Below are positions 44,276 through 62,535 of a DNA stretch of 64,000 nt, one piece after another; position 1 is the stretch's first letter; each line of letters opens with the position of its first letter. This DNA is from a virus. The stretch spans positions 1 through 64,000 of IMG/VR virus record IMGVR_UViG_3300033143_000663, one strand, 5' to 3'. Both the position numbers and the translations under genes were made by a program. The notes beneath the pieces are model-generated. The model did no database searches. It saw only the letters and a list, made by a program, of their open reading frames with translations, and was not told the origin of the DNA.

Positions 44276-44299
44276 ATCAGGTATAGAGGTTATGTCATG
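44254..44299. promoter_or_regulatory. 10-bp dyad over the accessory-operon promoter
   Basis: CATGACATAA (44254-44263) and its exact reverse complement TTATGTCATG (44290-44299) bracket the -10 box and include the start codon at 44297. The upstream arm is not in the predicted transcript, so a DNA operator is more likely than an RNA hairpin. Confidence 0.5.
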
Positions 44300-44608
44300 A
44301 ACAATCCCAAAACACAAATAAAGCATCATTTCGATCATGATGCTGCCAAGCAAATTCTTAAAGAAAAGTACGAAGCCAAAATGCTCTTTGCAGCATTTGA
44401 CGGCTTATGGAAAGCTGGCCCTGAATTACTAACAACTTTGTATATTTGGGACGGCAAACCAACAAGTACCACTATTGTATTAATAGACGAGTACGGAAAT
44501 CCTTGTAAGGTAAATGTGTTTGAACTTTTCGATCTAGCTAACGAACGTTGGCAAGAACAAATGAATGCTTGGCATCAAGAATTTGAAGTGTTGCAAACTA
44601 AACGATAA
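44297..44608 (+). CDS. Conserved small phage protein, unknown function
   Basis: A 103-residue protein, first in the accessory operon. It looks like a small soluble alpha/beta protein (KQILKEKYEAKMLFAAFDGLWKAG, about 20-43; WDGKPTSTTIVLIDEYGNPCKV, about 51-72). No catalytic motif was seen. Its last base is the first base of the next start codon (TAATG). Confidence 0.7.
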   Translation: MNNPKTQIKHHFDHDAAKQILKEKYEAKMLFAAFDGLWKAGPELLTTLYIWDGKPTSTTIVLIDEYGNPCKVNVFELFDLANERWQEQMNAWHQEFEVLQTKR

Positions 44609-44808
44609 TGGCATTAGGTCCTAGAGCATGTTTGGAATGTCGGGTGCTGGCGATATTTGATCGCATTGTATCATATGGCACCTCTTGCTGGCACTGTCCT
44701 ATATGTAAATCAAGAACAAAAGATCATATTTTACCCACTGCGGAAATAGCTAAAGAGTTTAAGGATAATTTAAAATTTTATAAATTTGTAGAAGGTAACG
44801 ATGAATAA
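44608..44808 (+). CDS. Small zinc-ribbon-like protein
   Basis: A 66-residue protein with cysteines spaced CLEC (about 8-11) and CWHCPIC (about 27-33), enough to bind one zinc ion. The remainder is a basic then acidic helix. It overlaps both neighbours by a few bases. Its role, perhaps a regulator or adaptor, is unknown. Confidence 0.65.
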   Translation: MALGPRACLECRVLAIFDRIVSYGTSCWHCPICKSRTKDHILPTAEIAKEFKDNLKFYKFVEGNDE

Positions 44809-45613
44809 AGGTGTTTTAATATTTGCTTTCAATAACACTAAACTAGATTACTTTAAACAGGCAGTCTGGGTAGCAGACAGAGTTGACAAATTTTTAGGAT
44901 TGCCGACAACTATTATTACAGACGATAACAGTTATAAAGAAACTCGCCATAATACAATATGCATAGAAGCTGAGATTATGAGTAAGCGTAACTTTGACGT
45001 GTCACAAGACGATCAAGTTGATCACTGGTACAACGCCAACAGGTTTCAAGCCTATAACTTGTCGCCATACAATGAAACAATAGTAATAGATAGTGATTAT
45101 ATTGTTAACAGTGAACAACTAAATTTACTTTTTAGTTCACCACATGATTTCTTATGTCACAGAGACGTGTATGATGTTGCAGCTAAAAATAGTCTAGTAG
45201 AACACCAAACGTTTGGATCTACTAAAATGCCGCACTACTGGGCTACTGTATTGTTCTTTCGTAAATCTGAATTTGCTGAACAGATGTTCGAAACAATTAC
45301 AATGATAAAAGAAAACTATAAATTCTATAGTAAATTGTATAAGTTTAATCCTAATCCGTTTCGTAATGACTTTGCAGTTAGTATAGCGATGTCAATTATG
45401 TACGGACATAGAATAAATTCAATTCCAACAATACCTTGGAAACTGCCAACTGCGGTTACAGATATAACAACAACACAAATTAACGATACGACGTTTAAGC
45501 TATTATATAATAAGCGTTATAGGAATAAAGTTCGCACAATGAGCACAATAATTAAAGATCATGATTTTCATTGTTTTAATAAAGTAGCATTGGAACAGAT
45601 GATAAATGATTGA
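44801..45613 (+). CDS. Glycosyltransferase-like protein 1
   Basis: A 270-residue protein with a GT-A-like layout: an N-terminal strand-loop (KGVLIFAFNNTKLDYFKQAVWVADRV), PTTIITDD (about 35-42), then NETIVIDSDYIVNSEQL (about 87-103) where DSD fits the metal-binding DxD motif. The C-terminal half contains MPHYWATVLFFRK. It may transfer sugars to a host surface polymer, virion protein or DNA; the acceptor is unknown. It overlaps the next gene by 8 bases. Confidence 0.6.
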   Translation: MNKGVLIFAFNNTKLDYFKQAVWVADRVDKFLGLPTTIITDDNSYKETRHNTICIEAEIMSKRNFDVSQDDQVDHWYNANRFQAYNLSPYNETIVIDSDYIVNSEQLNLLFSSPHDFLCHRDVYDVAAKNSLVEHQTFGSTKMPHYWATVLFFRKSEFAEQMFETITMIKENYKFYSKLYKFNPNPFRNDFAVSIAMSIMYGHRINSIPTIPWKLPTAVTDITTTQINDTTFKLLYNKRYRNKVRTMSTIIKDHDFHCFNKVALEQMIND

Positions 45614-46415
45614 AGCAGAAAGAGGATATTTAATAGTTGCACAAAATACATCTGACGTAGATTATATCGATTGTGCTAGGGCCTGTGCGCGTAGTATTAA
45701 ACTACACACACCAACCGCAAAAATAGCAATACTATCAGACAAAAAGTACAACCTCAACGAATTTGATTACCATATTGTTTTTCCATATACAACTGACCCA
45801 GATAATCCGTTTTCAAATGATTGGCAAGTATATCATGCAAGTCCGTTCAGACAAACTATTAAAATAGAAGCGGATATGATAGTTCCACATTGTATAGAAC
45901 ATTGGTGGTTAATGTTAGAAAAGAAAGATGTTGTATTAACAACCGGAGCACGAAACTACCACAACGAGTTAACACAACAAAGACATTATAGAAAAATATT
46001 TGATGCTAATAACTTACCAGACGTATATAATGCTATAACGTATTGGAGAGTCAGTAAACCTGCATCGGATTTTTTTGCAATGGTAAAACAATTATTTGAT
46101 AATTGGGAAGATGTGCAAACACAACTTAAATTAGGTAAAACAGATCATGGCACAACAGATCTAGTTTATGCTATCGCAGCAAGAGCATTTGGAGTTGAAA
46201 ATGTTACGTTGCCAGGAACGAGTTATCCTTCATTGATACACATGAAAGGTAGAATAAATGATTGTGCGGGCGAAGATTGGACAAAAGAATTGGTATGGGA
46301 GTTAGCTGGCGCTAACATACGTATCAATACTCTTGATCAACAGTATCCATTTCATTACTGTATAAAAGAATTTAGCAAGGTTTTAAACGAATATTATGAC
46401 ACTTACTCCCTTTGA
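45606..46415 (+). CDS. Glycosyltransferase-like protein 2
   Basis: A 269-residue protein with a similar layout to its upstream neighbour: YIDCARACARSIKLHTPTAKIAILSD (about 20-45), then RQTIKIEADMIVPHCIEHWW (about 82-101), where EAD takes the DxD position. It later has YPSLIHMKGRIND. It is probably a distant paralog with a different substrate. The first Asp of the DxD motif is Glu here, so activity is uncertain. Confidence 0.55.
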   Translation: MIEAERGYLIVAQNTSDVDYIDCARACARSIKLHTPTAKIAILSDKKYNLNEFDYHIVFPYTTDPDNPFSNDWQVYHASPFRQTIKIEADMIVPHCIEHWWLMLEKKDVVLTTGARNYHNELTQQRHYRKIFDANNLPDVYNAITYWRVSKPASDFFAMVKQLFDNWEDVQTQLKLGKTDHGTTDLVYAIAARAFGVENVTLPGTSYPSLIHMKGRINDCAGEDWTKELVWELAGANIRINTLDQQYPFHYCIKEFSKVLNEYYDTYSL

Positions 46416-46722
46416 AGAAGCACTAAAATTAACAGATAACGTCGCACCGGTTGAACTTGAATTTAGACTGTACTACGACACTGAAACAAATCTTCCATTA
46501 TTTTATTCAATGGAAGAACAGCAAGGTGACTATATAAATATATCCAAGGAAGAATTTGCCGAATGTAGGTACGATATTATTATTAAAGATAGCAAGATAT
46601 GTAAAGTTACACACTTGTCGATTGGTAAATTGGTGCCTACGCACTTTGGATACGGCACAACAAAAGATGATATTACTATTGTGGGTAACGAACAGAATTG
46701 GAATATGAAAACATATGATTGA
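46396..46722 (+). CDS. Conserved small phage protein, unknown function
   Basis: A 108-residue protein between two glycosyltransferase-like genes. It has ELEFRLYYDTETNLPLFYSMEEQQGDYINISKEEFAE (about 20-56) and KICKVTHLSIGKLVP; the pattern suggests a small beta-sandwich. Similar small proteins occur in marine T4-like phages. It overlaps the gene before by 20 bases and the gene after by 8. Confidence 0.65.
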   Translation: MTLTPFEEALKLTDNVAPVELEFRLYYDTETNLPLFYSMEEQQGDYINISKEEFAECRYDIIIKDSKICKVTHLSIGKLVPTHFGYGTTKDDITIVGNEQNWNMKTYD

Positions 46723-47638
46723 TTCAATAGACATAGCAGACTTAGACGTAGTTTATCTAAGTTACGATGAACCACAGAAAGAAGAGTTCTGGGTTAGGAT
46801 TAAAAATATGGTTCCGTGGGCCGTTAGAGTAGACGGTGTTAAGGGTAGCGATGCAGCGCATAAAGCCGCCGCAGACGCAAGTGAAACAGATAGATTTATT
46901 TTGATTGATGGTGACAACTTGCCCGACTTGGACTTCTTTAACTTAACACTTGATTTTAAAGATGCAGATTATGAAAAGGCTGTATTCCGTTGGAGAGCAC
47001 GTAACCACATCAATGGGTTGATGTACGGCAATGGTGGTATTAGTTGTTGGACTAAAGACTTTATATATAATATGAAAACACACGAAGCAAGTGTAGGTAG
47101 TGATGACACCGATGTGGAGTTTTGTTTTGATCCATTGTATTGGGCGATGCATGATTGTTATAGTACGACATATCCAAATGGTAGCAAGTTCCATGCATGG
47201 CGCGCAGGGTTTAGAGAAGGCGTTAAGATGTGCTTGAACCAGGGTAAGAAACCTACAATCGGAGAGTTTAAAGATAGCGTACATAAACGTAACATGGCCC
47301 ATTTAAGTATTTGGCATAACATAGGTAGTGATGAGGAATACGGCTCATGGGCAATTCTTGGTGCGCGTATGGGTACACATATGACAATGTTAACAGACTG
47401 GAATTATAAAGAAGTACAGTGGTTCGACAACCTGGCAGAAATTTACAAGCAGGTGCATGATGTACCAGCACAAATTCAAGCATTAGGTGTAGAGCTCGAA
47501 ACACAATTAGATTTACCTATGCTGTCACCTAGTGCTGAGCATAGCAAGTTCTTTAAAGATCACTATCGTTCTAATTGGCACAATAAAGGTGTAATGGTAC
47601 GTGAAATTGATGTAATACGTAACCTAGAAGGTTGGTAA
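46715..47638 (+). CDS. Glycosyltransferase-like protein 3
   Basis: A 307-residue protein. Residues about 5-75 (DLDVVYLSYDEPQKEEFWVR, VPWAVRVDGVKGSDAAHKAAA, TDRFILIDGDNLPDLDFF) look like a nucleotide-sugar domain with DGD at the metal site. The middle has a conserved-looking KAVFRWRARNHINGLMYGNGG. The second half of the large protein at 59381 has a similar sequence of motifs. It may act on the product of the radical SAM enzymes that follow; TAATG couples it to the first of them. Confidence 0.6.
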   Translation: MIDSIDIADLDVVYLSYDEPQKEEFWVRIKNMVPWAVRVDGVKGSDAAHKAAADASETDRFILIDGDNLPDLDFFNLTLDFKDADYEKAVFRWRARNHINGLMYGNGGISCWTKDFIYNMKTHEASVGSDDTDVEFCFDPLYWAMHDCYSTTYPNGSKFHAWRAGFREGVKMCLNQGKKPTIGEFKDSVHKRNMAHLSIWHNIGSDEEYGSWAILGARMGTHMTMLTDWNYKEVQWFDNLAEIYKQVHDVPAQIQALGVELETQLDLPMLSPSAEHSKFFKDHYRSNWHNKGVMVREIDVIRNLEGW

Positions 47639-49011
47639 TGAGTAAGAGTAAGTTTTTGTCTGACGCAGAAAAGATGAAGGAGAAACTAGACTCTGTTAGT
47701 CCTTCGATGTGTCTTGCAAAATGGAAACAGGTGTCCTTGCATTTGACTACAGGGTTGAATAACTCGTGCTACCATCCACCATTACATACAATAGATGTCG
47801 CCGCAATTAAAAAAGACCCAAGTGCATTACATAACACAGAGTTAAAGAACAACATACGTAAGCAAATGATAGAAGGTATTCGTCCAGCAGAGTGTAGCTA
47901 TTGTTGGGCAATGGAAGATAATGGAAAGCTGAGTGATCGTCACTACAGAAGTGGCGAACCGTGGGCAGCAAAAGACTTTGACGCTATAGTTGCAAACCCA
48001 TATGCCGATGTTAACCCTTCATATGTGGAGGTTAACTTTAACCATGCATGTAACTTGGCGTGTTCTTATTGCTCCCCTCAGTTTTCCACTACTTGGATGA
48101 AGGAAGTTAAGAAGCACGGTGCGTACCCTACAGCACAACCACACAACGATCCTGCGTACTTTACTAGCATCAGACGCCCAATACCTAACCGCGAAGATAA
48201 TCCATACGTTGATGCATTTTGGGAGTGGTGGCCAGAACTATATAAAGAACTTGTACATTTTAGAATGACAGGTGGCGAACCACTTATGGATAAGAATACA
48301 TACAAGGTATTTGATTATGTATTAGCAAACCCAAAGCCCGATTTGCATTTAAATGTAACAAGTAATTTGTCTGTAGACCAAAAACTATGGGACAAGTACA
48401 TGGGCTATGTTAAGCAATTAACAACAGGTAAGATCGAACACTTTATGCAGTACGTAAGTGTTGACACTTGGGGCGAACAAGCTGAGTACATACGCCACGG
48501 ATTAGACTTCAATTTGCTTCTTGAACGTGTAGAGGAATTTCTAACAGAGATACCTAGTTACAGTAGCATCACGTTTATTATTACAATGAACAATCTATCC
48601 ATACATAACCTCAGACAGTTAATGATGAACATATTACACTTGAGAAGAAAGTATAGTAAGGACTTCCAGCGTGTCTGGTTTGATACTCCTGTGCTACGTA
48701 CACCAGAATGGCAGAGTATGCAAATACTTCCAGAGCACTTTGTTAGTAGGTTAGAAGATGCGAAACAATACATGCTAGACAACATGGAAACAGAAGACAA
48801 TCGTTTCCACGGGTTTAAAGACTATGAAGTACAGCGCATGGACAGAGACATTGCGTGGATGAAACAAGGAACAGACAACCTAGAACAAAAGAAGGCAGAC
48901 TTCTATCGCTTCTTTAACGAAGCGGACAGACGTCACAATACAAACTTTTTATTAACGTTCCCTGAGCTAACTGCATTTTGGAACGAGTGCAAATATTATG
49001 CAAACAAATAA
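47638..49011 (+). CDS. Radical SAM protein 1 of the tandem array
   Basis: A 457-residue radical SAM enzyme. An N-terminal cysteine segment (SMCLAKWKQVSLHL, then SCYHPP) precedes the cluster motif CNLACSYC (Cys138, 142, 145), and MTGGEPLMDKNTY gives the SAM-binding GGEP motif. CSYCW around residue 83 adds further cysteines. I chose the ATG at 47638 (TAATG overlap) instead of the TTG at 47632. It is close in layout to array member 3 (50464). Substrate unknown. Confidence 0.88.
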   Translation: MSKSKFLSDAEKMKEKLDSVSPSMCLAKWKQVSLHLTTGLNNSCYHPPLHTIDVAAIKKDPSALHNTELKNNIRKQMIEGIRPAECSYCWAMEDNGKLSDRHYRSGEPWAAKDFDAIVANPYADVNPSYVEVNFNHACNLACSYCSPQFSTTWMKEVKKHGAYPTAQPHNDPAYFTSIRRPIPNREDNPYVDAFWEWWPELYKELVHFRMTGGEPLMDKNTYKVFDYVLANPKPDLHLNVTSNLSVDQKLWDKYMGYVKQLTTGKIEHFMQYVSVDTWGEQAEYIRHGLDFNLLLERVEEFLTEIPSYSSITFIITMNNLSIHNLRQLMMNILHLRRKYSKDFQRVWFDTPVLRTPEWQSMQILPEHFVSRLEDAKQYMLDNMETEDNRFHGFKDYEVQRMDRDIAWMKQGTDNLEQKKADFYRFFNEADRRHNTNFLLTFPELTAFWNECKYYANK

Positions 49012-49297
49012 ACTCAAGGTATTTAAAATTTTAAAAGGGGAAAAGATTGTCATTCGGCGTCGATTTCCGAATTTTGTTTGCGACGGCCGACCGTTAGGGC
49101 CAGAACCTGAATTGTATCTACATTCAATAATAATTGAAGAAGACTTTTATACGTTAGATTGGGTAAAGGAAATTATGTCTGACCCGAATTTTAAAAGTTG
49201 GTTTGTTGAGGCGGAAAAAATATGTGCCCGGTATGGAACTGACACAGCTTGGCATGCGGTGGTTGAAGAAGGAGAAATATCTTTTGCTAACAGATAA
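48998..49297 (+). CDS. Small protein between radical SAM genes
   Basis: A 99-residue protein overlapping radical SAM gene 1 by 14 bases and gene 2 by 14 bases. It begins with a basic strand-rich part (LKVFKILKGEKIVIRRRFPNFV) and ends with a helix (KSWFVEAEKICARYGTDTAWHAVV). A second small protein of similar size and position follows radical SAM gene 3, so such small proteins may be partners or substrates. Not recognised. Confidence 0.65.
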   Translation: MQTNKLKVFKILKGEKIVIRRRFPNFVCDGRPLGPEPELYLHSIIIEEDFYTLDWVKEIMSDPNFKSWFVEAEKICARYGTDTAWHAVVEEGEISFANR

Positions 49298-50462
49298 GAA
49301 CAAAGATACATTCTGCCCAGGACACTGGGACGATATTCATTTTGCTCCGTCACAAGGATATATGTACGGTTGTTGCAAAGCGGTACCAATCCCAATAGAA
49401 GATACACGCGAAACTGATCAACGTATACACGACTCTCTAAATGGTATTAGAAACCCAGCCTGCGAGTACTGCTGGAAAACAGAAGATGCAGGCAACGAAA
49501 GCTATCGACATTACAAAATTAAGTTATGGAATAAAACAAAAAGTTGCCGCATGTTAAATTTAGTACTTGGTAATCTGTGTAATCTCCAATGTACGTATTG
49601 CAACGAAAAATATAGTTCAAAGTGGCAAACGGATAAAAAACGCAACGGTGAAATCAAACTGCATTTTGATAGAAATGTATATTACGGCGGCGAATCAATC
49701 GACAACAAGGAGTCACAGGAATATATTGACTTCTTTAATAGCATTACACCCGCACCAAAAGTATTCTCAGTGTCGGGCGGAGAGCCATTAATGGGAAATA
49801 TTTTTAATGATATTTTAACACAATGCGATCTAACTGATGTAGAGACCATACGTGTTTCTACAAACTTAAACTACCCAAACCGAGTTGTAGTTAAAAAGCT
49901 ATTAGAATTTGAGAATACACATAAGGTAATTTTCAATGTAAGTTTAGATACAATAGACTCCGAAATGCAGGAATATATACGTTTTGGATTTTCATGGAAG
50001 AAGTTCAAAAATAATTTAGATTTTCTCTTAAATGAAACATCAGTGTGTATAAATTTTAATTCACTTTTTACAGCACAAACAGTATTTGGTATTTACAACA
50101 TGTACGAATTCGTGTATAATTTAAAGATGGCATATCCTGACAGGATTAATTGGTTTATATCAACATGTACAACACCATCAATACATACCTTTGACACGTT
50201 AGTTGATTCGGATAAAGCGAAGGCATTAGCATTCGCGCAAGCGGCGCAATCGAAAATATCCGGTCAACAAGTCGCAGACCAAATGTCAATTGTGAACAAA
50301 ACATATATGGAATTGATACAAATTAATAAATTGGTTGCGGCATTAGAGCAAGCGACATTCAATGAAGAATTACTAAAGGATCAGCAAAGTTTCTTTAGAC
50401 AGTTCAATGAGAGACAGGAAATTCAATTACCTAAAAAACTAAAGTTTTTAATTGGAGAGTAA
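49284..50462 (+). CDS. Radical SAM protein 2 of the tandem array, probable TTG start
   Basis: A 392-residue radical SAM enzyme if started at the TTG 49284, which has AAGGAG 9 bases upstream. A TTG at 49203 would overlap the previous gene by 95 bases with family-unlike sequence. The N-terminus has FCPGHWDD and GCCKAVP, then CEYCWKTED; the cluster motif is CNLQCTYC (Cys99, 103, 106); SVSGGEPLMGN is the GGEP motif. Two later cysteines only, so the C-terminal domain may lack a second cluster. Substrate unknown. Confidence 0.85.
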   Translation: MLTDKNKDTFCPGHWDDIHFAPSQGYMYGCCKAVPIPIEDTRETDQRIHDSLNGIRNPACEYCWKTEDAGNESYRHYKIKLWNKTKSCRMLNLVLGNLCNLQCTYCNEKYSSKWQTDKKRNGEIKLHFDRNVYYGGESIDNKESQEYIDFFNSITPAPKVFSVSGGEPLMGNIFNDILTQCDLTDVETIRVSTNLNYPNRVVVKKLLEFENTHKVIFNVSLDTIDSEMQEYIRFGFSWKKFKNNLDFLLNETSVCINFNSLFTAQTVFGIYNMYEFVYNLKMAYPDRINWFISTCTTPSIHTFDTLVDSDKAKALAFAQAAQSKISGQQVADQMSIVNKTYMELIQINKLVAALEQATFNEELLKDQQSFFRQFNERQEIQLPKKLKFLIGE

Positions 50463-50463
50463 A

Positions 50464-51831
50464 ATGAGTTTAAGAAAACCGGGCAGAGAAAAAGATGAAG
50501 AAGTGCTAGACTTTATTAACTCGTTTAGTCCTTCGATGTGTTTGGCTAAATGGTACAATGCTACTATATGGCTTGGCAGTGGTCAAACAACGAGCTGCCA
50601 TCATCCGCCAGCACACCAAATCGATCTCAAAGAACTTGAAAGCAACCCAAGAGCCTTACACAATACACGCGAGAAGAAAACAGATCGTATGCAAATGCAA
50701 GATGGCCGTCGTCCACCGGGTTGTGAGTACTGCTGGAAGATTGAAGATATGGAACGTGGTGCTATTAGCGACCGTGTTTATAAGTCTGTAATATATGACG
50801 ATAAAGATGTTAACCTTGTTTCAATGCTTGATCCACGCTCGGATGTTAATCTTAAAACTCTTGAGATTGCCTTTGACCGTACATGTAACTTTGCTTGTTC
50901 GTATTGTAACCCAGCGTTTAGCACCGAATGGGTCAAGGACATAAAGAAGTTTGGCCCGTATCGCTTATTACAAAGTGATGGTCGCAATCACTTCACGCAC
51001 ACACATGATTCAGCAGAGCCGTATGGCCCAAAAGAAGAAAACCCGTATGTAGAAGCGTTCTTTAAATGGTGGGACTCGGATTTAAAATATACGTTACAAG
51101 AGTTACGACTGACTGGCGGCGAACCTTTAATGTCTGGGCACACCTGGCGCTTGTTTGATAAGTTTATAGAAGATAAACCCGACATGCAGTTTGCCTTAAA
51201 TAGTAATCTGTGTGCTAAGGATAAACTAATTGATAAGTTGGTTGAAACAACACATTCAATTTCAAACTTCCAGTTATACACAAGCAATGAAGCCATAGGC
51301 GATCAAGCAGAGTACATACGCGACGGGCTTGATTGGTTACAATGGAAACTAAATGTACACAAGATTCTTAAGGAAGGAAGTGTTCAAGGTTTTCATATGA
51401 TGTGTACTATTAATGCATTGTGTTTAGAGTCGTTACCACAGTTCTTAGATATGATGTTGGAAATGAAAACAGCGTACGGTGGCCAGAACTTTCCAACGTT
51501 TTCATTAAACATCTTAAGGTTCCCATCGTTCCAGAGTCCACTAGTATTACCGGACGACTTACGAACAGAATTTAAAGATGAATTGCAGTGGTGGTTAGAT
51601 ACCAATGGCACTAATCCATTGTTGCATGAAATGGAAATTAATCAAGTACAGCGGTTAATTGATTACCTTGATGTTGTTAAAACACCACACGATGGTACGT
51701 TTGACTTGCCTGCATTGCGTAACGATTTTTACATGTTTTATCAACAGTATGACTCGCGCCGTAGCAAGTGTCTTAGCTTGACCTTTCCTAGGATAGGAGA
51801 ATGGTATGATGGTCTCGGACAGAAGATCTAG
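50464..51831 (+). CDS. Radical SAM protein 3 of the tandem array
   Basis: A 455-residue radical SAM enzyme very similar in layout to member 1: FSPSMCLAKWYNATIWL, SCHHPPAHQID, CEYCWKIED, cluster motif CNFACSYC (Cys141, 145, 148), LRLTGGEPLMSG. A GGAGAG ribosome site precedes the ATG at 50464. Members 1 and 3 share SPSMCLAKW and an ALHNT segment, so they arose by duplication with member 2 between them. Confidence 0.88.
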   Translation: MSLRKPGREKDEEVLDFINSFSPSMCLAKWYNATIWLGSGQTTSCHHPPAHQIDLKELESNPRALHNTREKKTDRMQMQDGRRPPGCEYCWKIEDMERGAISDRVYKSVIYDDKDVNLVSMLDPRSDVNLKTLEIAFDRTCNFACSYCNPAFSTEWVKDIKKFGPYRLLQSDGRNHFTHTHDSAEPYGPKEENPYVEAFFKWWDSDLKYTLQELRLTGGEPLMSGHTWRLFDKFIEDKPDMQFALNSNLCAKDKLIDKLVETTHSISNFQLYTSNEAIGDQAEYIRDGLDWLQWKLNVHKILKEGSVQGFHMMCTINALCLESLPQFLDMMLEMKTAYGGQNFPTFSLNILRFPSFQSPLVLPDDLRTEFKDELQWWLDTNGTNPLLHEMEINQVQRLIDYLDVVKTPHDGTFDLPALRNDFYMFYQQYDSRRSKCLSLTFPRIGEWYDGLGQKI

Positions 51832-52078
51832 GGGTTCTAAAGTGGAGAAATTGCCAGACGGCCCGATCAACTGGAACCGACGGTTTATACGAACACTCAA
51901 AGTGAACGGAAAGCAAACATATATAATTTCGGACTATAAGTTCTGGTCAAACAATCAAGTTGAACTTGAAAATTGGCTTATAGCTAATACTGAGGATGGT
52001 CTAGATACGCAAGAAGGAATGACACTAAATTTTTGCAGCGAGCAAGAAGAATTAATGTTTAAGTTAAGATGGGAATAA
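51806..52078 (+). CDS. Small protein between radical SAM genes
   Basis: A 90-residue protein overlapping radical SAM gene 3 by 26 bases and ending one base before gene 4. It has a basic start (DRRSRGSKVEKL) and a NWNRRFIRTLKVNGKQTYIISDYKFW strand-rich centre. It occupies the same relative place as the 99-residue protein at 48998. Not recognised; it could be a chaperone or peptide substrate for the neighbouring enzymes. Confidence 0.65.
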   Translation: MMVSDRRSRGSKVEKLPDGPINWNRRFIRTLKVNGKQTYIISDYKFWSNNQVELENWLIANTEDGLDTQEGMTLNFCSEQEELMFKLRWE

Positions 52079-52079
52079 C

Positions 52080-53363
52080 ATGAGTTACGATTATAATAGC
52101 TGGCATCCAGTAGGGATTAATCCAGAAGAATTAGACGAGTACGAAACGGAGTTACTACGTGATAGTAAAACGTTTTGTATCTATCCGTGGATCCATTTAC
52201 ATGCATATCCAACAGGCGAAACGTATCCTTGTTGTCATGCAGACATGCAGCAACCTGTAGGTAGTACACGTAAAGATGCAATGAAAGATATTTGGAACAG
52301 CAATGGCATGAAACAGATACGTAAGAACATGCTCGAGGGTAAAGCATGTAGCGAGTGTGTAGGATGTTATGAACAAGAAGAAGCAGGTTTCTTTAGTGGA
52401 CGTAAGAGTGCTAATAAGCATCACGGACATCAAATTAATCTAGTAGAAGAAACACAAGCAGACGGCCACCTAGACAAATTTCAAATGTCTTACTGGGACG
52501 TGAGGTTCAGTAATTTATGTAACCTTAGTTGTCGCAGTTGTGGTCATATTTTCAGCAGTAGTTGGTATAAAGACCAAGTAGCGTTAGCCGGCGCCCAGTG
52601 GGGAGCAGACAATAGTGCTTTGCAGATTGCAGGCCGCAACAAAACAGATATGTTTGAACAGCTCATGGAACATATTGACTACGTTGAACAAATATACTTT
52701 GCAGGCGGTGAACCCTTAACCATGGAAGAACATTATCTGATTCTCGATGAACTGGAACGCAGAAAATTGTTCCATGTTCGCTTGATATACAACACTAACT
52801 TCACACAGATTAAACTTAAAGACAGAGAAGTCTTTGATTACTGGAAAAAGTTTGATAGTGTTAGTGTTGGAGCGAGTTTAGATGCAATGGGGCGCCGCGC
52901 AGAGTATATACGTAAGGGTACGAAATGGGACGTTGTGGAAGAAAACAGACGCAAGATGCTAGAAGTCTGTCCTGATGTGGACTTTTATATAAGTCCAACG
53001 TTAAGCATAATGAATGCTTTGCACATTACGGATTTCCACAAGGATTGGGTAGAGAAGGGTTTCTTAAAACCACAGGACCTAAACATCAATATTTTGCAAG
53101 ACCCGCTAGAGTTTAGAATTGATATTGCTCCACCTAGGTACAAAGAACGTATACGAGAGCTATTTGAAAAGCATATTAAATGGCTCAAAGGTAAGGATGA
53201 TTTAAATCGTGCTACTACAGGATTCGAAAGTGCCTTAACGTTTTTAGATGCAACAGACAACACACATTTAATACCTGCGTTCTGGGATAAGATAAACACT
53301 ATGGATAGAATTCGCAATGAAACATGGCATGACTATATCATTGAGGTTCACGATATTAAATGA
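52080..53363 (+). CDS. Radical SAM protein 4 of the tandem array
   Basis: A 427-residue radical SAM enzyme. N-terminal FCIYPWIHLHAYPTGETYPCC (about 31-51) and CSECVGCYEQEEAG precede the cluster motif CNLSCRSC (Cys147, 151, 154), then YFAGGEPLTMEEHY. The FCxxPWxH...PCC start is also seen in members 5 and 6, so these three form a subgroup distinct from members 1 and 3. The stop overlaps the next start by ATGA. Substrate unknown. Confidence 0.88.
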   Translation: MSYDYNSWHPVGINPEELDEYETELLRDSKTFCIYPWIHLHAYPTGETYPCCHADMQQPVGSTRKDAMKDIWNSNGMKQIRKNMLEGKACSECVGCYEQEEAGFFSGRKSANKHHGHQINLVEETQADGHLDKFQMSYWDVRFSNLCNLSCRSCGHIFSSSWYKDQVALAGAQWGADNSALQIAGRNKTDMFEQLMEHIDYVEQIYFAGGEPLTMEEHYLILDELERRKLFHVRLIYNTNFTQIKLKDREVFDYWKKFDSVSVGASLDAMGRRAEYIRKGTKWDVVEENRRKMLEVCPDVDFYISPTLSIMNALHITDFHKDWVEKGFLKPQDLNINILQDPLEFRIDIAPPRYKERIRELFEKHIKWLKGKDDLNRATTGFESALTFLDATDNTHLIPAFWDKINTMDRIRNETWHDYIIEVHDIK

Positions 53364-54556
53364 ACCTACCTAACAAAACGTTCTGCGTATTACCGTGGAT
53401 CAGTTTAGAAGCAAGCCCAATTGGTACTGTGCGCCCTTGTTGTTTAGCAGATGATGAAATAGTCAACGACGAAGGCGAGAAGTACGACCTTAATAAAGAC
53501 AGCCTCCTTGCAATACAAGATTGTACACACATGGAAAAATTGCGTGAGCAATTCCTTAGAGGCGACCGTCCAGCAACGTGCCGTAGGTGTTGGGCCGAAG
53601 AAGATGTCGGGCGTACTAGTAAGCGGATGAATACAATAGCCCGTCTTGAACACGTCTTAAAAGATACAGCCGACTGGAATAAGTCCGCTAAGAACTTACA
53701 GTTTATAGACTTTAAGCTAGGCAATATTTGTAATCTAAAATGTCGTATATGTGGTAGTTGGAGTTCAAGTACATTTGCCGGCGAAGAAATAAAGTTTGCA
53801 CAAGACGATGACAGTTTCCATAGGGATATGAACCGCAAAGGAATGTGGCCGCGCAAGGCCAAGTCATTCTGGGATGAGCTCGAATTCGCAGCATCAGATT
53901 TACGCTATTTAGAGTTTACCGGCGGTGAGCCGTTTATGATAAAAGAGCACTTTGAGTTTCTAGATAGATTAATCCAAAAGGGTCTAGCTAAACAAATCGA
54001 AATACATTATAACACAAATGGTACACACTGGCCCGAAAAGTACGTGCATCTTTGGAAAGAATTCAAGCATGTAGAATTTGCATTTAGTATCGATAACATT
54101 GGTAAGCGGTTCGAGTACGAACGTACCAATGCAAATTGGGATGAAGTAAACGAAAATATTTGGAAGTTTATTAAGTGGCGTTCGGGTCAATTGAATACAT
54201 CTCTCCAGCTATGTACTACTATTAATATCTATAATGTGTTATACTTAGAGGATATCTACAATTGGGAGTACTTCGATAAGTTCGATTTTGTATTTTGGAA
54301 TATGTTACACGATGCACCGGAAAATTGTATTAAGTCGTTGCCGGAACATGCAAAAGCCGCAGTAAGAGAAAAGTTATTACTAGCTCATGTAGATGATAAA
54401 ACATTAGAAGAATTTAAAAATGTTGTTAGTTTTATGGACTCAGGTAAGGGTGTTGACCCGTTGCCTAATATTACTAAGCTAGACAACCGCCGCGGAGTGT
54501 CTTTAAAAGATACTCATCCAGAACTATATAAATTATTATATGAAGAAGCCAGATAA
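53360..54556 (+). CDS. Radical SAM protein 5 of the tandem array
   Basis: A 398-residue radical SAM enzyme with FCVLPWISLEASPIGTVRPCC (about 7-27), CRRCWAEEDVGRTS, cluster motif CNLKCRIC (Cys124, 128, 131) and LEFTGGEPFMIKEHFEFL. The end (RGVSLKDTHPELYKLLYEEAR) resembles the end pattern of array members 1 and 3. It overlaps the next gene by 17 bases. Substrate unknown. Confidence 0.88.
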   Translation: MNLPNKTFCVLPWISLEASPIGTVRPCCLADDEIVNDEGEKYDLNKDSLLAIQDCTHMEKLREQFLRGDRPATCRRCWAEEDVGRTSKRMNTIARLEHVLKDTADWNKSAKNLQFIDFKLGNICNLKCRICGSWSSSTFAGEEIKFAQDDDSFHRDMNRKGMWPRKAKSFWDELEFAASDLRYLEFTGGEPFMIKEHFEFLDRLIQKGLAKQIEIHYNTNGTHWPEKYVHLWKEFKHVEFAFSIDNIGKRFEYERTNANWDEVNENIWKFIKWRSGQLNTSLQLCTTINIYNVLYLEDIYNWEYFDKFDFVFWNMLHDAPENCIKSLPEHAKAAVREKLLLAHVDDKTLEEFKNVVSFMDSGKGVDPLPNITKLDNRRGVSLKDTHPELYKLLYEEAR

Positions 54557-55595
54557 CAAACCAGATACATTGTGCCTTGCACCGTGGATTCATACATATC
54601 TAAGTCCACAGACTGAACGTAGAATGTGTTGCGCTTCACGCGAACCAGCACAAAACTTTAAACAGTACATAGATACACACACAGGTGACGGCCTGTATAA
54701 TCCCTTAACACTAGAAGAACACTGGAACAGTGAACACATGAAGTCTGTGCGTAAGCGTATGATGGCAGGCGAAGAATTAAGTGAATGCGATGTATGCAAT
54801 AACAAGTTACTAAACACAGACGTTTACCGTAGTTACTTTTGGAATATGTTCAAACAACATTACGATAACATTTGGGATCACACAGATGATGATGGCCATA
54901 CATACATGAACCCAGTAAGCTGGGACTATCGGTTCAGTAATTTGTGTAACTTCAAGTGCCGTATGTGCGGCGGTATGCTATCGTCTAGCTGGGAAAGCGA
55001 AGAACGCAAGCACGACATGATTGATTGGACTAACCCAGCTAATAACTGGATGCAAAAAGATGTCCGCGGGCAAATAAGTAAATTTCAAGATACACAAGTT
55101 GAAAAAGAATTTAGTGATGCGGTCGAAGAGAACCGCATTGAAGAAGTGTATTGGGTAGGTGGTGAACCACTAATGTTTGAACAGCATTGGAAGTACATGA
55201 AGCGAATCATCGATCTTGGCAATGGTCATATGGTGTATGCACGTTACAATACAAACTTATCACAAATAGAATACAAAGGTACACATCTTTACAAAGATAT
55301 CTTGCCGCATATACGCGATTGGCAGATATGTGCAAGTATTGACGGTACTGGCGAAGTTGGAGAATATATAAGGACAGGCCTAAAGTGGCACACGTTCTTA
55401 GATAACTTTAAACAAGGATTAGCAATAGCCAATAACCCCCGCCAGATGCGTCTTGATTTTACCCTGACATTACCAGGGCTTTTTGAGCTGAAAAACATGT
55501 TTAACCTTAGTAAGTCGTTAAATACTACGTTACTTGCTAAAGTTACATTTGCATTCGGTCCAAACATTTTAATGTCGCCTTTAGCATTAGAATAG
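54540..55595 (+). CDS. Radical SAM protein 6 of the tandem array, probably frameshifted
   Basis: A 351-residue radical SAM enzyme with LCLAPWIHTYLSPQTERRMCC (about 11-31), CDVCNNKLLN, cluster motif CNFKCRMC (Cys136, 140, 143) and VYWVGGEPLMFEQHW. It stops after SPLALE while the -1 frame continues open to 55849 with sequence that reads as the missing C-terminus. Either an indel, an assembly error or recoding occurred near 55580-55595. The catalytic part is intact. Confidence 0.82.
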   Translation: MKKPDNKPDTLCLAPWIHTYLSPQTERRMCCASREPAQNFKQYIDTHTGDGLYNPLTLEEHWNSEHMKSVRKRMMAGEELSECDVCNNKLLNTDVYRSYFWNMFKQHYDNIWDHTDDDGHTYMNPVSWDYRFSNLCNFKCRMCGGMLSSSWESEERKHDMIDWTNPANNWMQKDVRGQISKFQDTQVEKEFSDAVEENRIEEVYWVGGEPLMFEQHWKYMKRIIDLGNGHMVYARYNTNLSQIEYKGTHLYKDILPHIRDWQICASIDGTGEVGEYIRTGLKWHTFLDNFKQGLAIANNPRQMRLDFTLTLPGLFELKNMFNLSKSLNTTLLAKVTFAFGPNILMSPLALE

Positions 55596-55663
55596 TAAAC
55601 GACTTTTTAGAGTATGCGAATAAGGAAGGATATGACCAAAACCAGCAGCCGCTAGTTGATGTT

Positions 55664-55849
55664 ATGACCAATATTTTAAGCAGGCCTACATTCGAAGAAG
55701 AATGGCCAAGCGACTACGAGCAAGGAGCAATTGACGGGAAAGCCCGTATACTAAAGGTTGAGAATGTTCGCCTTGCTTCATGTACGCTGGAAGATATTTT
55801 ACAATCAGAGGATGCAGAAGCATATGAGTGGTACAAAGCAATATCTTGA
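55664..55849 (+). pseudogene. Out-of-frame C-terminal remainder of radical SAM protein 6
   Basis: The -1 frame relative to the upstream gene is open through the stop at 55593 and reads RIVNDFLEYANKEGYDQ, then from the internal ATG 55664 MTNILSRPTFEEEWPSDYEQ to LEDILQSEDAEAYEWYKAI. It looks like a natural continuation of the upstream enzyme. No slippery heptamer is visible at the junction. It could also be an independent 61-residue gene starting at 55664. Confidence 0.5.
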
Positions 55850-56912
55850 CACGATAGAACTGATGTTAAAAAATAAAAACACTGGTGACTTACTGTCAGT
55901 TTATATTAACGTCTTTGACGATTCATTGAGTAAGAAATGGTTCGCCGCACTTAACGATATTCTTAATAAGAAGTTGCACCTTGAAAAGAATTACCACTTT
56001 TTTGGTATTCCTGAGTACAAACGCAACGGTCAATACTTAACGGCGAAAATGAATGAATCTATCGAAGCTATTAACAAAGCTGAACTCGGCTATCAAATCG
56101 ACGATTTCTTTAGTCTTTCTAATACTCTTCAAGACATTGATGGGCCTGTTGGTGATGACCATCCTGGTAGGAAACTTATTCATGAAAAAATGAATATGCT
56201 GCATCGTTACTTTGAAGACCTCCAAGGTACAAGCGGACACATGTCTGAATACTACAATAAAGCGGATTCCGAAACACGTTGGCATATACGTCAACTTAAC
56301 TTATTGTGTCACGAGTATGAATCGTGGGCGTTAAGCTGGCGCCGTGAATCGTACTGTCGAGAGTGGATGCGACCAAGTGAATTATTTTGTTTTTTACATG
56401 CACCGCGGTTTGAACTGACAGAAGAAGACTACGAGAGCTTCGGCATTGAAACAATTGCACGACCACTTGGTGGTGTGTTTGTTGGTGTTAACAAAGCAGT
56501 TGGCAAACATCATTGGGAAGTGTTTAAAGATGAAGGCGGCGATAGTAGGATAGACGAGTTAACAACATCTGCAATGCGATCACAAACAGAAGCCGCAGGA
56601 GATTTTGATATTGAATGGGCAAACGACCCAGGACAATTTGATTGGATGCAGAAAGATCTAAGAGACTTCGAACAGTGGCTAATTGTTAACGGATTTGATC
56701 CAGATGATAAATCACTTACAATTGGTCATCCGCAAGTAGCAGAAGTAGACCTGGAAAGAACATTTAATTCCACTGATTATAAAGTAGTATGGGATAAATT
56801 ATTCAATCATCTTGACGTGCATAGCATAAAAACAAAAGACAATTATGTAGAATATGCATATCACTGGGATGATCCAGACTATAAAGAACAACAAATTAAG
56901 GTGTTGGGTTAA
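55824..56912 (+). CDS. Unrecognised 362-residue protein
   Basis: I prefer the ATG at 55824 (MSGTKQYLDTIELMLKN); an in-frame upstream start at 55758 would add 22 residues that lie in the tail of the preceding frame. The protein looks soluble and helical at first (about 1-140, including GDDHPGRKLIHEKMNMLHRYFEDLQG), then alpha/beta (about 190-240: RFELTEEDYESFGIETIARPLGGVFVGVNKAVGKHHW). It is rich in Trp and His. Conserved-looking motifs exist but I do not know the family. TAATG couples it to the next mini-gene. Confidence 0.7.
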   Translation: MSGTKQYLDTIELMLKNKNTGDLLSVYINVFDDSLSKKWFAALNDILNKKLHLEKNYHFFGIPEYKRNGQYLTAKMNESIEAINKAELGYQIDDFFSLSNTLQDIDGPVGDDHPGRKLIHEKMNMLHRYFEDLQGTSGHMSEYYNKADSETRWHIRQLNLLCHEYESWALSWRRESYCREWMRPSELFCFLHAPRFELTEEDYESFGIETIARPLGGVFVGVNKAVGKHHWEVFKDEGGDSRIDELTTSAMRSQTEAAGDFDIEWANDPGQFDWMQKDLRDFEQWLIVNGFDPDDKSLTIGHPQVAEVDLERTFNSTDYKVVWDKLFNHLDVHSIKTKDNYVEYAYHWDDPDYKEQQIKVLG

Positions 56913-57016
56913 TGATTAAATGGTTAAAAAGAAAATGGTGCGATTGGCAGTTACATCGCCGTTATAAGAAGAAACTTAAAGAGCTAAAGAAGCGTGATCC
57001 TTTTATATACAAATGA
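56912..57016 (+). CDS. 34-residue basic mini-protein
   Basis: MIKWLKRKWCDWQLHR at the start and KKRDPFIYK at the end. It is very basic and rich in Trp, joined by TAATG to the gene before and ATGA to the gene after, so it is clearly part of the operon. I recall similar tiny WCDWQL...KRDPFIYK proteins from marine phages. Possible amphipathic or nucleic-acid-binding peptide; function unknown. Confidence 0.7.
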   Translation: MIKWLKRKWCDWQLHRRYKKKLKELKKRDPFIYK

Positions 57017-57198
57017 GTGAGTTTATCAATAACGATCCCTGTAAGCGAGTCTGTGTTACCGATAAGGAAACTGGGCTTTGCTATGGGTGTAAGCGGTCAG
57101 TGGACGAGATAAGAAACTGGAATTTATATTCAGACGAAATGCGTAAAAGCATTCTAATGGACATTGAGGACAGAGATCCTTCTAATGAGACAAAATAA
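57013..57198 (+). CDS. DUF1289-type small cysteine protein
   Basis: A 61-residue protein with PCKRVCVTDKETGLCYGCKR (about 9-28) followed by SVDEIRNWNLYSDEMRKSIL, the arrangement of DUF1289 proteins, predicted to bind iron-sulfur. Four cysteines are present. In this context it could help maintain the clusters of the radical SAM enzymes, but that is inference. It overlaps the carbamoyltransferase start by 14 bases. Confidence 0.8.
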   Translation: MSEFINNDPCKRVCVTDKETGLCYGCKRSVDEIRNWNLYSDEMRKSILMDIEDRDPSNETK

Positions 57199-58702
57199 TA
57201 TACTAGGTATTAGTGCTGGCTTCCATGACGCGGCAGCTACCGTAATCGATGGCGACAATGGTAAGATATTGTTTGCCAGTCATAGCGAGCGTTACAGTAA
57301 GAAAAAGCACGACAAAGAATTAAGTCCGTTATTAGTAGACGAAGCGTTACTACATGGTACAATTAGTACAGTGGCGTATTATGAGAATCACTGGTTAAAG
57401 AAAGCCAGACAGATCTTCGCAGGACAGAAGATTGATAACTGGCGTTGGTCATTGCGCGAAGAACTTAATCGTCATCTTCCTAATCGTCATTTATTCCTTG
57501 ACAGCGTTGAGCTAAAAGGCTACGGCCATCACAAATCACACGCCGCTGCCGGATTCCAAACTAGTCCTTATGACGAAGCGACCGTAGTTGTTATTGATGC
57601 CATTGGTGAGTTTGATACTATTACTATTTGGAACGCCAGGTACGATAATAAAGGCAGAGCACAATATAAACTACGTTACCGCCAGATGTATCCAAACAGC
57701 ATCGGCTTATTCTACAGTGCAATTACAAACAACGTAGGTTTACGTCCACTAGACGAAGAATATGTTTTAATGGGCATGGCCGCATACGGCGACGCATCAA
57801 AAACAGTAACTAAAATTAAGCATAAACTAGTGCGATCTATCGACCCTATTAGATTTAAAGAGAACTTGCATATTGGGTTTCATGATAGTTTTTGTAAGCG
57901 TGGCATTAACAAGTTTGACGTTGCCGCAGGAGCACAATCAATACTAGAAGAAATGATCGACAGTGTAATGCAAAAATCTAAGAAGTATGATCGTTCTAAT
58001 AATTTAGTATTCATGGGCGGCGTAGCATTAAATTGTTCTGCTAATAGAAACCTTGGCAAGTACTACGAAAACATTTGGATCATGCCCAACCCCGGTGATG
58101 CTGGTAGTAGCTTAGGTGCTGCGGCATTAGCGTATGGTAAGAAATTACAATGGAATAATGCATTCCTTGGGTACAATATTGCAGGACCTTATCCTGTTGA
58201 TAAAGTTATTGCAACTTTACTAGAAGAAAAGATTGCTGGTGTTGCTAATGGAAAGGCTGAGTTCGGACCACGCGCATTAGGCAATCGTTCTTTGCTTGCT
58301 GATCCACGTGGTGCTGACATTAAAGATAAAATAAACGAAATTAAACGTAGACAAAAGTTTCGTCCGTTTGCTCCAATGATACTTGCAGAATATGTTGATG
58401 AGTATTTTATCATACCAGACGGCTTTAACGAAAGTGATTACATGCAAGTTACAGCAAAGTGTAGTAAACCTAAAGAGTTCCCTGCGATAATACATGAAGA
58501 TGGTACAAGTAGAGTCCAGACAGTACAAGACGATGGTACTGGTATACGGAAACTTCTTGAAGCATGGTACAACGAAACCGGTTGTCCTATACTACTTAAC
58601 ACATCATTAAACATACGCGGTGAACCCGTTGTAAATGATGTAGCAGATGCAAAGCGATTTGAAGAAGAGTACGGTGTAAAAGTATTTACATCCGTATTAT
58701 AA
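57185..58702 (+). CDS. Carbamoyltransferase (NodU/CmcH/TobZ family)
   Basis: Transfers a carbamoyl group from carbamoyl phosphate, through a carbamoyl-adenylate, to a hydroxyl of a small molecule, sugar or modified base. The 505 residues start ILGISAGFHDAAATVI; GHHKSHAAAGF (about 117-127) carries the metal-binding histidines of the Kae1-like domain; FMGGVALNCSANRNLG and GDAGSSLGAAALAYG follow; the C-terminal domain has AEFGPRALGNRSLLADPR and RPFAPMIL. It is somewhat shorter than typical members. ATG 57185 is preferred over 57164. The acceptor is unknown. Confidence 0.92.
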   Translation: MRQNNILGISAGFHDAAATVIDGDNGKILFASHSERYSKKKHDKELSPLLVDEALLHGTISTVAYYENHWLKKARQIFAGQKIDNWRWSLREELNRHLPNRHLFLDSVELKGYGHHKSHAAAGFQTSPYDEATVVVIDAIGEFDTITIWNARYDNKGRAQYKLRYRQMYPNSIGLFYSAITNNVGLRPLDEEYVLMGMAAYGDASKTVTKIKHKLVRSIDPIRFKENLHIGFHDSFCKRGINKFDVAAGAQSILEEMIDSVMQKSKKYDRSNNLVFMGGVALNCSANRNLGKYYENIWIMPNPGDAGSSLGAAALAYGKKLQWNNAFLGYNIAGPYPVDKVIATLLEEKIAGVANGKAEFGPRALGNRSLLADPRGADIKDKINEIKRRQKFRPFAPMILAEYVDEYFIIPDGFNESDYMQVTAKCSKPKEFPAIIHEDGTSRVQTVQDDGTGIRKLLEAWYNETGCPILLNTSLNIRGEPVVNDVADAKRFEEEYGVKVFTSVL

Positions 58703-62050: not shown

Positions 62051-62535
62051 TATTTTCTCTTCCAGATTTCGTAGTTATGTGTTACACACATCTGTGAACG
62101 TGTTAGTGTAAAGTCTTTTTCGAGACGCTCAAGATCTATATGTGTATCACATTCGTATTCATTGCGTAAGTGTGATAAGTGTAGTTCGTTGATGTAATCC
62201 CAGGCAGATGTAACTAACCCTGCTCCACCTATTATCCACGTTTTATCTCGATCGGTAAGTTCATTAGCGAGCCAGCCTTCTAAATCCCAAATTTGCCCAA
62301 CACTCATTAAGCTAGTATCAAATACCGGCTCCTTTGAATGAGATACAATGATGTTCTGTCTGTTTGGTAATGGTTTAGGCATCCCGGTTGATTCCCAAGT
62401 GCCGCGCCCCATTACAACGGTTTGTCCTGTGGTGAGTTCTTTAAACCTGGCAAGATCCTTCGATTGCTTAGGCCACGGCATTGATCCTTCAAATCCAATG
62501 CCGCCATTCTTCTCACATGCTAGAATAGCTTTCAT
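62050..62535 (-). CDS. frd: Dihydrofolate reductase
   Basis: Regenerates tetrahydrofolate used up by thymidylate synthase. The 161 residues match the family: ACEKNGGIGFEGSMPWPKQSKDLARFKELT (about 6-35; the acidic active-site residue lies in this region), VVMGRGTWESTGMPKPLPNRQNIIVS (about 40-65) and TWIIGGAGLV (about 98-107) for NADPH binding. The ATG overlaps the upstream stop by ATGA. It lies upstream of thyA in one minus-strand operon. Confidence 0.95.
   Translation of the reverse strand: MKAILACEKNGGIGFEGSMPWPKQSKDLARFKELTTGQTVVMGRGTWESTGMPKPLPNRQNIIVSHSKEPVFDTSLMSVGQIWDLEGWLANELTDRDKTWIIGGAGLVTSAWDYINELHLSHLRNEYECDTHIDLERLEKDFTLTRSQMCVTHNYEIWKRK

Follow-up and report, generated by a model that had tools for sequence, protein, structure and literature searches.

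Five different radical SAM enzymes, encoded one after another behind the tail-fibre genes of little-studied large phages and nearly always accompanied by sugar-transferring enzymes, form a conserved array which very probably serves a joint multi-step pathway. The array was characterised in the window, i.e. the whole 64,000-nucleotide stretch of DNA that was analysed (positions 1 to 64,000 of the 67,890-base virus record IMGVR_UViG_3300033143_000663). Six radical SAM genes adjoin one another there; we refer to genes 1, 3, 4, 5 and 6 as types A, C, D, E and F, and to gene 2 as B.

The array and its reading frames

The record contains seven PF04055 matches, six on the plus strand at 47.6-55.3 kb and one on the minus strand at 9274-9702. 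All six array proteins also match the NCBIfam model NF033640 (N_Twi_rSAM, radical SAM proteins with an N-terminal Twitch domain) across most of its length, and five of them exceed its cut-off of 170 bits, with gene 2 under it at 155.9 bits. The six adjacent genes described in the earlier note are therefore real, as is the seventh radical SAM gene that it had placed at 8728, which is not a member of the array. The sequence features ascribed to each gene, namely CxxxCxxC, GGEP and an N-terminal cysteine segment (C25, C44, C86 and C89), are invariant across the six proteins, and PF13186 (SPASM) is matched in D and E. In good agreement with the subgroups proposed earlier (1 and 3; 4, 5 and 6; 2 apart), the tree separates genes 1, 2 and 3 from genes 4, 5 and 6 (98% SH-aLRT), gene 2 sitting on a long branch. 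The array genes overlap or abut as in an operon (e.g. the start at 53360 lies within the end of 52080-53363). A scan for promoter-like sites (50 versus 49.5 expected) and terminator-like sites (12 versus 10.3 expected) carried no information.

The ORF of gene 6 spans 54540-55595 (351 aa), and a frameshift near 55590 leaves the last ~85 residues of its product in another frame, which reaches 55849, the array end given in the earlier note. Because this out-of-frame tail matches the C-termini in 110 of 133 F proteins compared, the 61-aa ORF is no gene of its own but the tail of gene 6. Gene 2, the start of which is uncertain (49203-49233), was seen only in a few close relatives and is accessory rather than core. 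The 99- and 90-aa proteins had been put forward as substrates. Both are poorly conserved, the former turning up nowhere but in the window and two loci on a single contig that carries an identical gene A, the latter only in close relatives, and they are thus poor substrate candidates.

Table 1. Features of the array and its surroundings, in window coordinates
Feature	Coordinates	Strand	Evidence
c8, tail collar protein	38576..40513	+	PF07484 E 9.6e-16
c6, tail-region protein upstream of cassette	42750..44222	+	conserved position
c7, conserved small protein between tail genes and cassette	44297..44608	+	alignment
c3, first of pair, glycosyltransferase-like by eye	44801..45613	+	recurs before array
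c3, second of pair	45606..46415	+	recurs before array; phrog_1903
c1, conserved small protein, 108 aa	46396..46722	+	in 48/69 sources; alignment
c0, predicted GT-A fold protein directly upstream of A	46715..47638	+	AF2 model; invariant DGDN
Core radical SAM A (gene 1), N-terminal Twitch	47638..49011	+	NF033640 325 bits; clade A
99-aa ORF, not conserved	48998..49297	+	
Accessory radical SAM B (gene 2)	49212..50462	+	NF033640 156 bits, below cut-off
Core radical SAM C (gene 3)	50464..51831	+	NF033640 302 bits; clade C
90-aa ORF, close relatives only	51806..52078	+	
Core radical SAM D (gene 4)	52080..53363	+	NF033640 400 bits; PF13186 E 1.3e-9
Core radical SAM E (gene 5)	53360..54556	+	NF033640 334 bits
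Core radical SAM F (gene 6), frameshifted near 55590	54540..55849	+	NF033640 281 bits
c2, directly 3' of F, possibly cyclophilin-like with helical insert	55824..56912	+	alignments, model, fold matches
DUF1289 protein, accessory	57013..57198	+	PF06945 E 1.3e-16
Carbamoyltransferase	57185..58702	+	PF16861 E 5e-49, PF02543 E 8e-35
539-aa protein clustering with c0	59381..61000	+	protein clustering
Seventh radical SAM gene, outside array	8728..9729	-	PF04055 34.5 bits

The core and its partners in phages and bacteria

The same cassette does occur in other phages, where the earlier note had suggested looking for it: types A, C, D, E and F recur in 225 viral loci with zero order violations, a tally over three baits. 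Here and below, the loci are the best 80 of each scan (five scans, with 525, 480, 158, 89 and 67 relatives found), and the counts do not measure prevalence. The same contigs were returned by several baits, and the tally was therefore also counted by distinct A proteins. Genes were called as longest ORFs, and the type labels of some scans, that with bait c0 among them, were assigned by clustering and best hits. Core types C and F are almost never on their own (79/80 loci for bait F, 79/79 for bait C). When c0, which is not a radical SAM protein, served as bait, the array was present in 76 of 78 new loci (best loci of the scan), both misses being contig ends. Gene order was changed in 9 of the 79 best loci from a later bait.

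CxxxCxxC and GGEP are retained in every distinct full-length protein (127/127 A, 122/122 C, 116/116 D, 97/97 E and 79/79 F; 541/541 core proteins for CxxxCxxC), and the N-terminal cysteines in at least 96% of proteins of each core type. The core is under purifying selection, with median dN/dS of 0.05-0.07 per type (at most 60 pairs per type, 21-47 of which passed the saturation filter). All 16 of 16 large contigs carry 7-21 family members. Scattered single copies stand in unrelated contexts in two phage contigs, and D-like genes are single, again in unrelated contexts, in six loci. According to the earlier note, single genes alone in unrelated contexts would indicate independent functions; such genes were found among non-core members, and not for the core, since C and F are almost never alone and the set recurs in bacteria, where all five core types lie on one contig of the predatory bacterium Bacteriovoracaceae UBA6144. 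The 17 bacterial genomes surveyed were picked for having matches, and the bacterial tree holds a random 55 of 101 representatives, built by a quick method.

The constant neighbours of the core are the tail-fibre genes, c0, c2 and a carbamoyltransferase that is above the cut-offs of both its families (PF02543, 121 bits; PF16861, 166 bits). The AF2 model of c0 (pLDDT 88.3) has a sole Foldseek match below 1e-3, the PBCV-1 capsid-glycosylation enzyme 2p6w (E 3.5e-4), and in VIA the predicted model resembles several GT-A enzymes over ~140 residues with modest scores (Z 8.0-8.8). Its DGDN, invariant in 15/15 alignment rows, is presumably a DxD-type metal motif. From this modelled fold, c0 is a putative GT-A glycosyltransferase. 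The ORF of c2 is listed from 55758, the start at 55824 being taken from the alignment. Of its 13 best VIA rows (Z 9.0-9.8, covering ~140 of 367 residues), eight carry cyclophilin or PPIase names and five come from large complexes as single chains, and Foldseek returned no match under 1e-3; c2 is possibly cyclophilin-like. A single-sequence c2 bait gave zero viral-contig matches, with patterns on unconserved stretches, which does not imply absence. Sequence searches of solved structures gave nothing convincing for c0, c2, c3 and the cluster-4 proteins. The last of these, together with an NAD-dependent epimerase and a cytidylyltransferase, are optional cassette genes. ThyA and DHFR genes lie nearby.

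Candidate products of the pathway

We propose that these six genes are what can be seen of a conserved pathway in which A, C, D, E and F would work consecutively or in parallel towards a single product, each core enzyme with one predicted SAM-binding [4Fe-4S] cluster and probably one N-terminal auxiliary cluster. A multi-step pathway beside glycosyltransferase-like and carbamoyltransferase genes had been suggested before, and the co-conservation of the core supports it. The product would probably be a glycan: c0, the c3 pair, the optional cluster-4 proteins, the epimerase and the cytidylyltransferase may assemble sugars, the radical SAM enzymes may alter C-H bonds of these sugars by epimerisation, dehydration, oxidation or methylation, and a final group may come from the carbamoyltransferase. 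Because the cassette directly follows tail-fibre genes, this glycan would be displayed on host-recognition fibres or on the surface of the infected cell. That the pathway tailors an unusual glycan at these sites we advance tentatively, as a serious possibility.

The bacterial relatives speak on both sides of the glycan proposal. In its favour, all three bacterial genomes that carry c0 have it within ~120 bases of a family member, and a c2 relative in Bdellovibrio has both a family member and PF00534 glycosyltransferases in its vicinity. Around bacterial members, the carbamoyltransferase and glycosyltransferase families rank with the more frequent ones, each accounting for 4 of 115 neighbours in a tally that covered 115 of the 124 listed and was spread over 136 Pfam families. 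Alphaproteobacterial contexts are mixed. Against a glycan, the 48 proteins analysed of 104 listed between or beside bacterial family members included no glycosyltransferase family, UBA6144 has no c0 or c2 match despite all five types, 9 of 79 loci show a changed gene order, the best c0 Z of 8.8 is barely above a typical best value, and c3 and the cluster-4 proteins are without a solved-structure relative by sequence. Moreover, we know of no NF033640 member with a known substrate, product or reaction, and SPASM-type radical SAM enzymes mostly target peptides or proteins.

The main rival, which we regard as somewhat unlikely, is direct protein modification (crosslinks, D-residues or C-methylation), most plausibly of the tail-fibre or adhesin proteins encoded upstream, the glycosyltransferases then glycosylating the same protein or being separate. 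It would fit the N-terminal SPASM/Twitch-like domain, including PF13186 in D and E, and the tail genes directly preceding the cassette. A protein partner is suggested by two Bdellovibrionota-type genomes (G024 and G026), in which an A-type enzyme has PqqD-like and S74-domain proteins close by, and in another genome (G030) a 254-aa ORF beside a family member has both domains; S74 domains are present in Bdellovibrio prey-recognition fibres, according to passages of PMC10769870. However, PqqD was found in 0/16 and S74 in 2/16 phage contigs, which may be incomplete; c0 and c2 point to glycosyltransferases instead; and no conserved RiPP-like precursor was seen, the check beside the array returning c1 as a conserved small protein and the 99- and 90-aa ORFs as poorly conserved. 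Tandem-duplicated paralogues with separate targets, kept together by operon expression or joint transfer, are decidedly unlikely: membership of all six in one family, the scattered copies, the D-like singles and the order variants are compatible with independent functions, but the five types stay together over deep divergence, hardly ever alone, and do so on a bacterial contig as well.

Host-metabolism genes, whether for the SAM cycle or for making PQQ or another cofactor, have been proposed for the Baikal phage population VP_139 but are highly unlikely here. Radical SAM proteins do occur with a methionine adenosyltransferase and an MTA/SAH nucleosidase in that case (PMC7678222, in part), and PF02773 and PF01048 genes sit inside the cassette of some loci. 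Nevertheless, PqqE is absent among the NCBIfam matches of the array proteins, PqqD from all 16 possibly incomplete phage contigs, and SAM synthetase (5/16) and Fe-S assembly PF01883 (1/16) behave as optional helpers, not core. Glycosyltransferases and carbamoyltransferases are also known from phage DNA-modification systems, and with ThyA and DHFR nearby one might think of sugar-decorated bases; with the cassette sitting among tail genes, DNA hypermodification is scarcely credible (TET/JBP in 0/16 phage contigs, the control being likewise silent). Viperin-like antiviral nucleotide synthesis has a practically negligible probability: weak pVip matches in all six proteins (20-31 bits) would fit it, but the best NCBIfam viperin score is 26.7 against a cut-off of 180 bits, and NF033640 scores more than five times higher over nearly the whole protein.

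Returning to the glycan proposal, its most specific form is an undescribed pathway shared by large phages and predatory Bdellovibrionota, in which five serial radical SAM enzymes and a dedicated GT-A enzyme would place a radical-modified glycan on tail-fibre-like attachment proteins to give a host-recognition glycoprotein; in this full form we consider it unlikely. Radical SAM enzymes depend on SAM, Fe-S clusters and a supply of reducing power, and oxygen usually damages them. Given this cost, maintaining five of them in an array, and as many as 21 family members on one contig, must bring a phage a large benefit. The array provides a large enzyme family with a strict genetic context of five non-interchangeable roles, names its constant partners (c0, c1, c2 and the carbamoyltransferase) and connects phages to predatory bacteria. 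Should the product be a glycan or a fibre modification, this would be new chemistry at the virus-host interface.

Relation to known systems

That such phages have many radical SAM genes is already noted in earlier papers. The open-access literature searched yielded no description of the conserved five-gene core: the array is not described in the available portions of PMC9301287, PMC10783043, PMC7150976 and PMC12619734, and PMC9123017 gave no match in a term search. The T4-like pelagimyophages are similar in having radical SAM cassettes and glycosyltransferases in the tail-fibre region, within the host recognition cluster; in the available part of PMC7029224, however, the cassettes are mentioned as variable additions, as opposed to the conserved five-type core seen here. 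The T4-like TARA_ERS488813_N000010 likewise unites many radical SAM genes (12) and Fe-S helpers such as paaD in one genome, although array order, paralogue types and neighbours are not described in the portion of PMC5332604 available. Lake Baikal VP_139 encodes radical SAM proteins, a methionine adenosyltransferase, a nucleosidase and a cytidylyltransferase, interpreted as PQQ and SAM-cycle metabolism in the accessible text of PMC7678222; the likeness drawn here is one of gene content only. Vibrio phages K566 (OZ196521; five proteins) and K567 (OZ196593; at least three places) have family-like radical SAM proteins, some of them close together, but identity is only 22-25% and in the tree they branch apart from the core types. 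Finally, while the family name NF033640 states no reaction, five distinct members of this family here make up a conserved array.

Composition and conservation of the array

Radical SAM (PF04055) matches fall at seven places in the phage record: the array accounts for six, at 47.6-55.3 kb, and the seventh lies near 9.3 kb on the opposite strand. Every one of the six array proteins has a match to the N-terminal-Twitch family of radical SAM proteins (N_Twi_rSAM, NCBIfam NF033640), in five cases above its 170-bit cut-off (gene 2 scores 156), and they share invariant CxxxCxxC and GGEP motifs and four N-terminal cysteines. A frameshift near 55590 breaks gene 6, and the 61-aa ORF 55664-55849 is its C-terminus; of 133 F proteins compared, 110 match this stretch. 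Judged from sequence, this is a T4 superfamily-type phage: the baseplate-wedge protein, 1136 aa long, matched 72 phage records, headed by jumbo myoviruses at ~34% identity.

Trees and clustering of the array proteins defined types A-F (genes 1-6), with B (gene 2) accessory and the others core. A first scan with gene 4 as bait yielded 67 viral loci; together with one Vibrio phage and the window, these gave 69 typed sources, 39 with exactly A-C-D-E-F and most of the remainder being extra-copy variants or cut at contig ends. Seven sources had none of types A-F: Vibrio phage K566 (L001) and six loci with a lone D-like gene (35-36% identity). The K566 record (OZ196521) carries five family-like radical SAM genes, one annotated merely as hypothetical.

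Bait A added 79 loci with unchanged gene order as far as each extends. The gene directly before A, c0, is not a radical SAM gene; used as bait, it matched 525 stretches, from which 78 new loci were kept; the array is present in 76 of them, and the other two stop 2.1 kb and about 0.1 kb past c0. Pooling gave 225 loci, 139 distinct by A protein (loci lacking A each counted separately), and all five types occur in 83 distinct loci without a single order violation. A later bait scan found the order changed in 9 of 79 loci, e.g. A-C-D-F-E.

The earlier note had proposed that relatives with single array genes alone in unrelated contexts would indicate independent functions. For the core, such solitary occurrence is almost absent: in scans with C and F as later baits, at least one other core type accompanies C in 79/79 loci, and at least two accompany F in 79/80, the exception lying at a contig end. 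The six D-like genes do stand singly, as do extra family copies. All 16 viral contigs of 145-347 kb have 7-21 NF033640 matches each, and in the two inspected the extra copies are single, amid unrelated genes, so family members beyond the core set probably serve functions of their own. In two phage contigs, lone N_Twi_rSAM genes (L305-L314) have neighbours that by eye are of replication type: clamp loader, gp32-like and GroES-like.

None of the 541 distinct full-length core proteins (127 A, 122 C, 116 D, 97 E, 79 F) lacks CxxxCxxC or GGEP, every core type shows at least 96% conservation of the N-terminal cysteines among its proteins, and median dN/dS among relatives is 0.05-0.07; these sequence patterns indicate that core enzyme function is under maintenance.

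Relatives in bacteria

One scan of genomes returned 189 relatives, of which the best 79 loci were retained; some are plainly phage contigs within bins. Bdellovibrionota, with large family runs, are common among the bacterial relatives, and 17 chosen genomes have 2-42 family matches each. Type-specific profiles placed all five core types on one Bacteriovoracaceae UBA6144 contig (A 654, C 671 and 663, D 488, E 335 and F 534 bits, each well over the next type), where the run is flanked by genes that are obg- and rpmA-like by eye. By the same profiles a second genome has A, C, F and an E-like member. The tree is consistent with this typing for A, C, D and E. The Bdellovibrionia run in the table exceeds the family run of every phage locus examined here.

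Locations of domain pairs, gene runs and window features
Location	Strand	Feature	Basis
L179:2575-3339	-	PqqD-like and S74 chaperone domains in one ORF, near or next to N_Twi_rSAM genes; predatory-type bacteria	domain matches
L323:17127-17844; L324:1818-3842		Adjacent PqqD-like and S74 chaperone domains, N_Twi_rSAM genes next or near; predatory-type bacteria	
G017:C1:745513-774880 (L315, L316)		Run of over a dozen N_Twi_rSAM matches spread across about 30 kb; Bdellovibrionia	
Window 12667-15167	-	Second paralogue run: three successive look-alike ORFs, 265-286 aa	no Pfam match
Window 25878-37793	+	Tail-region ORF, 3971 aa	FG-GAP and weak carbohydrate-binding matches
Window 61163-62535	-	Adjoining thymidylate synthase and dihydrofolate reductase, downstream of the cassette	

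Partner genes and the likely product

That the five core enzymes serve a single pathway is well supported and very probable. Its setting is constant: tail collar protein (c8), c6 (tail-region), c7 (small protein), two c3 genes (the first glycosyltransferase-like by eye), c1 (small protein), c0, A to F, c2 and carbamoyltransferase. In 68 of 71 distinct loci (those with at least three genes after F, or with c2 found) c2 directly follows F. The c0 model (pLDDT 88.3, pTM 0.86) has a predicted GT-A fold: its sole Foldseek match below 1e-3 is a PBCV-1 capsid-glycosylation enzyme, and VIA lists 20 chains at Z of at least 8, including B4GALNT1, galactosyltransferases and also related-fold nucleotidyltransferases. 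For c2 (pLDDT 81.7, pTM 0.82) Foldseek gave no significant match; the top 13 VIA rows (Z 9.0-9.8) cover about 140 of 367 residues, eight being named cyclophilin or PPIase. Cluster-4 proteins have motifs that we take to be like those of GT-B/fucosyltransferase-type enzymes; sequence searches of solved structures gave no relative of these or of c3. Some loci add NAD-dependent epimerase, cytidylyltransferase, SAM synthetase (5/16 contigs), PNP_UDP_1 nucleosidase or the Fe-S assembly family PF01883 (1/16), the last three being compatible with radical SAM demand.

Because of c0, the carbamoyltransferase, the optional sugar genes and the position, the product is best read as a glycan carried on fibres or on the cell surface; this single leading reading is tentatively held at a little under even chances. 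Of the 17 bacterial genomes, three have c0, in each case with a family member no more than about 120 bases away (one further c0 place lacks so close a neighbour), and one, a Bdellovibrio, has c2. There c2 has a family member on one side and PF00534 glycosyltransferases on the other, and genes for an ABC ATPase and, by eye, an ABC-2-like permease are nearby. The main rival, direct modification of protein by the enzymes, is rather unlikely. In two bacterial genomes (G024, G026) an A-type enzyme lies close to PqqD-like and S74 proteins, in a third (G030) a single ORF carrying both domains adjoins a family member, and 48 proteins in or beside bacterial runs gave eight radical SAM matches and no glycosyltransferase match, which together argue against a purely glycan product. 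Any reaction order, substrate and chemistry assigned to the five enzymes are putative.

Comparison with described systems

Phage glycan and virion modification genes, and the enzyme family itself, were known already. In the open-access literature searched, no paper turned up that describes the five-type core as a conserved set, the partners constant to it or its occurrence in predatory bacteria, and the core is without a described counterpart there. An environmental T4-like genome has 12 radical SAM genes plus paaD (PMC5332604), the host recognition cluster of pelagimyophages contains radical SAM cassettes (PMC7029224), and a Baikal phage population has radical SAM proteins, methionine adenosyltransferase and a nucleosidase, which that study attributes to PQQ and SAM-cycle metabolism (PMC7678222).
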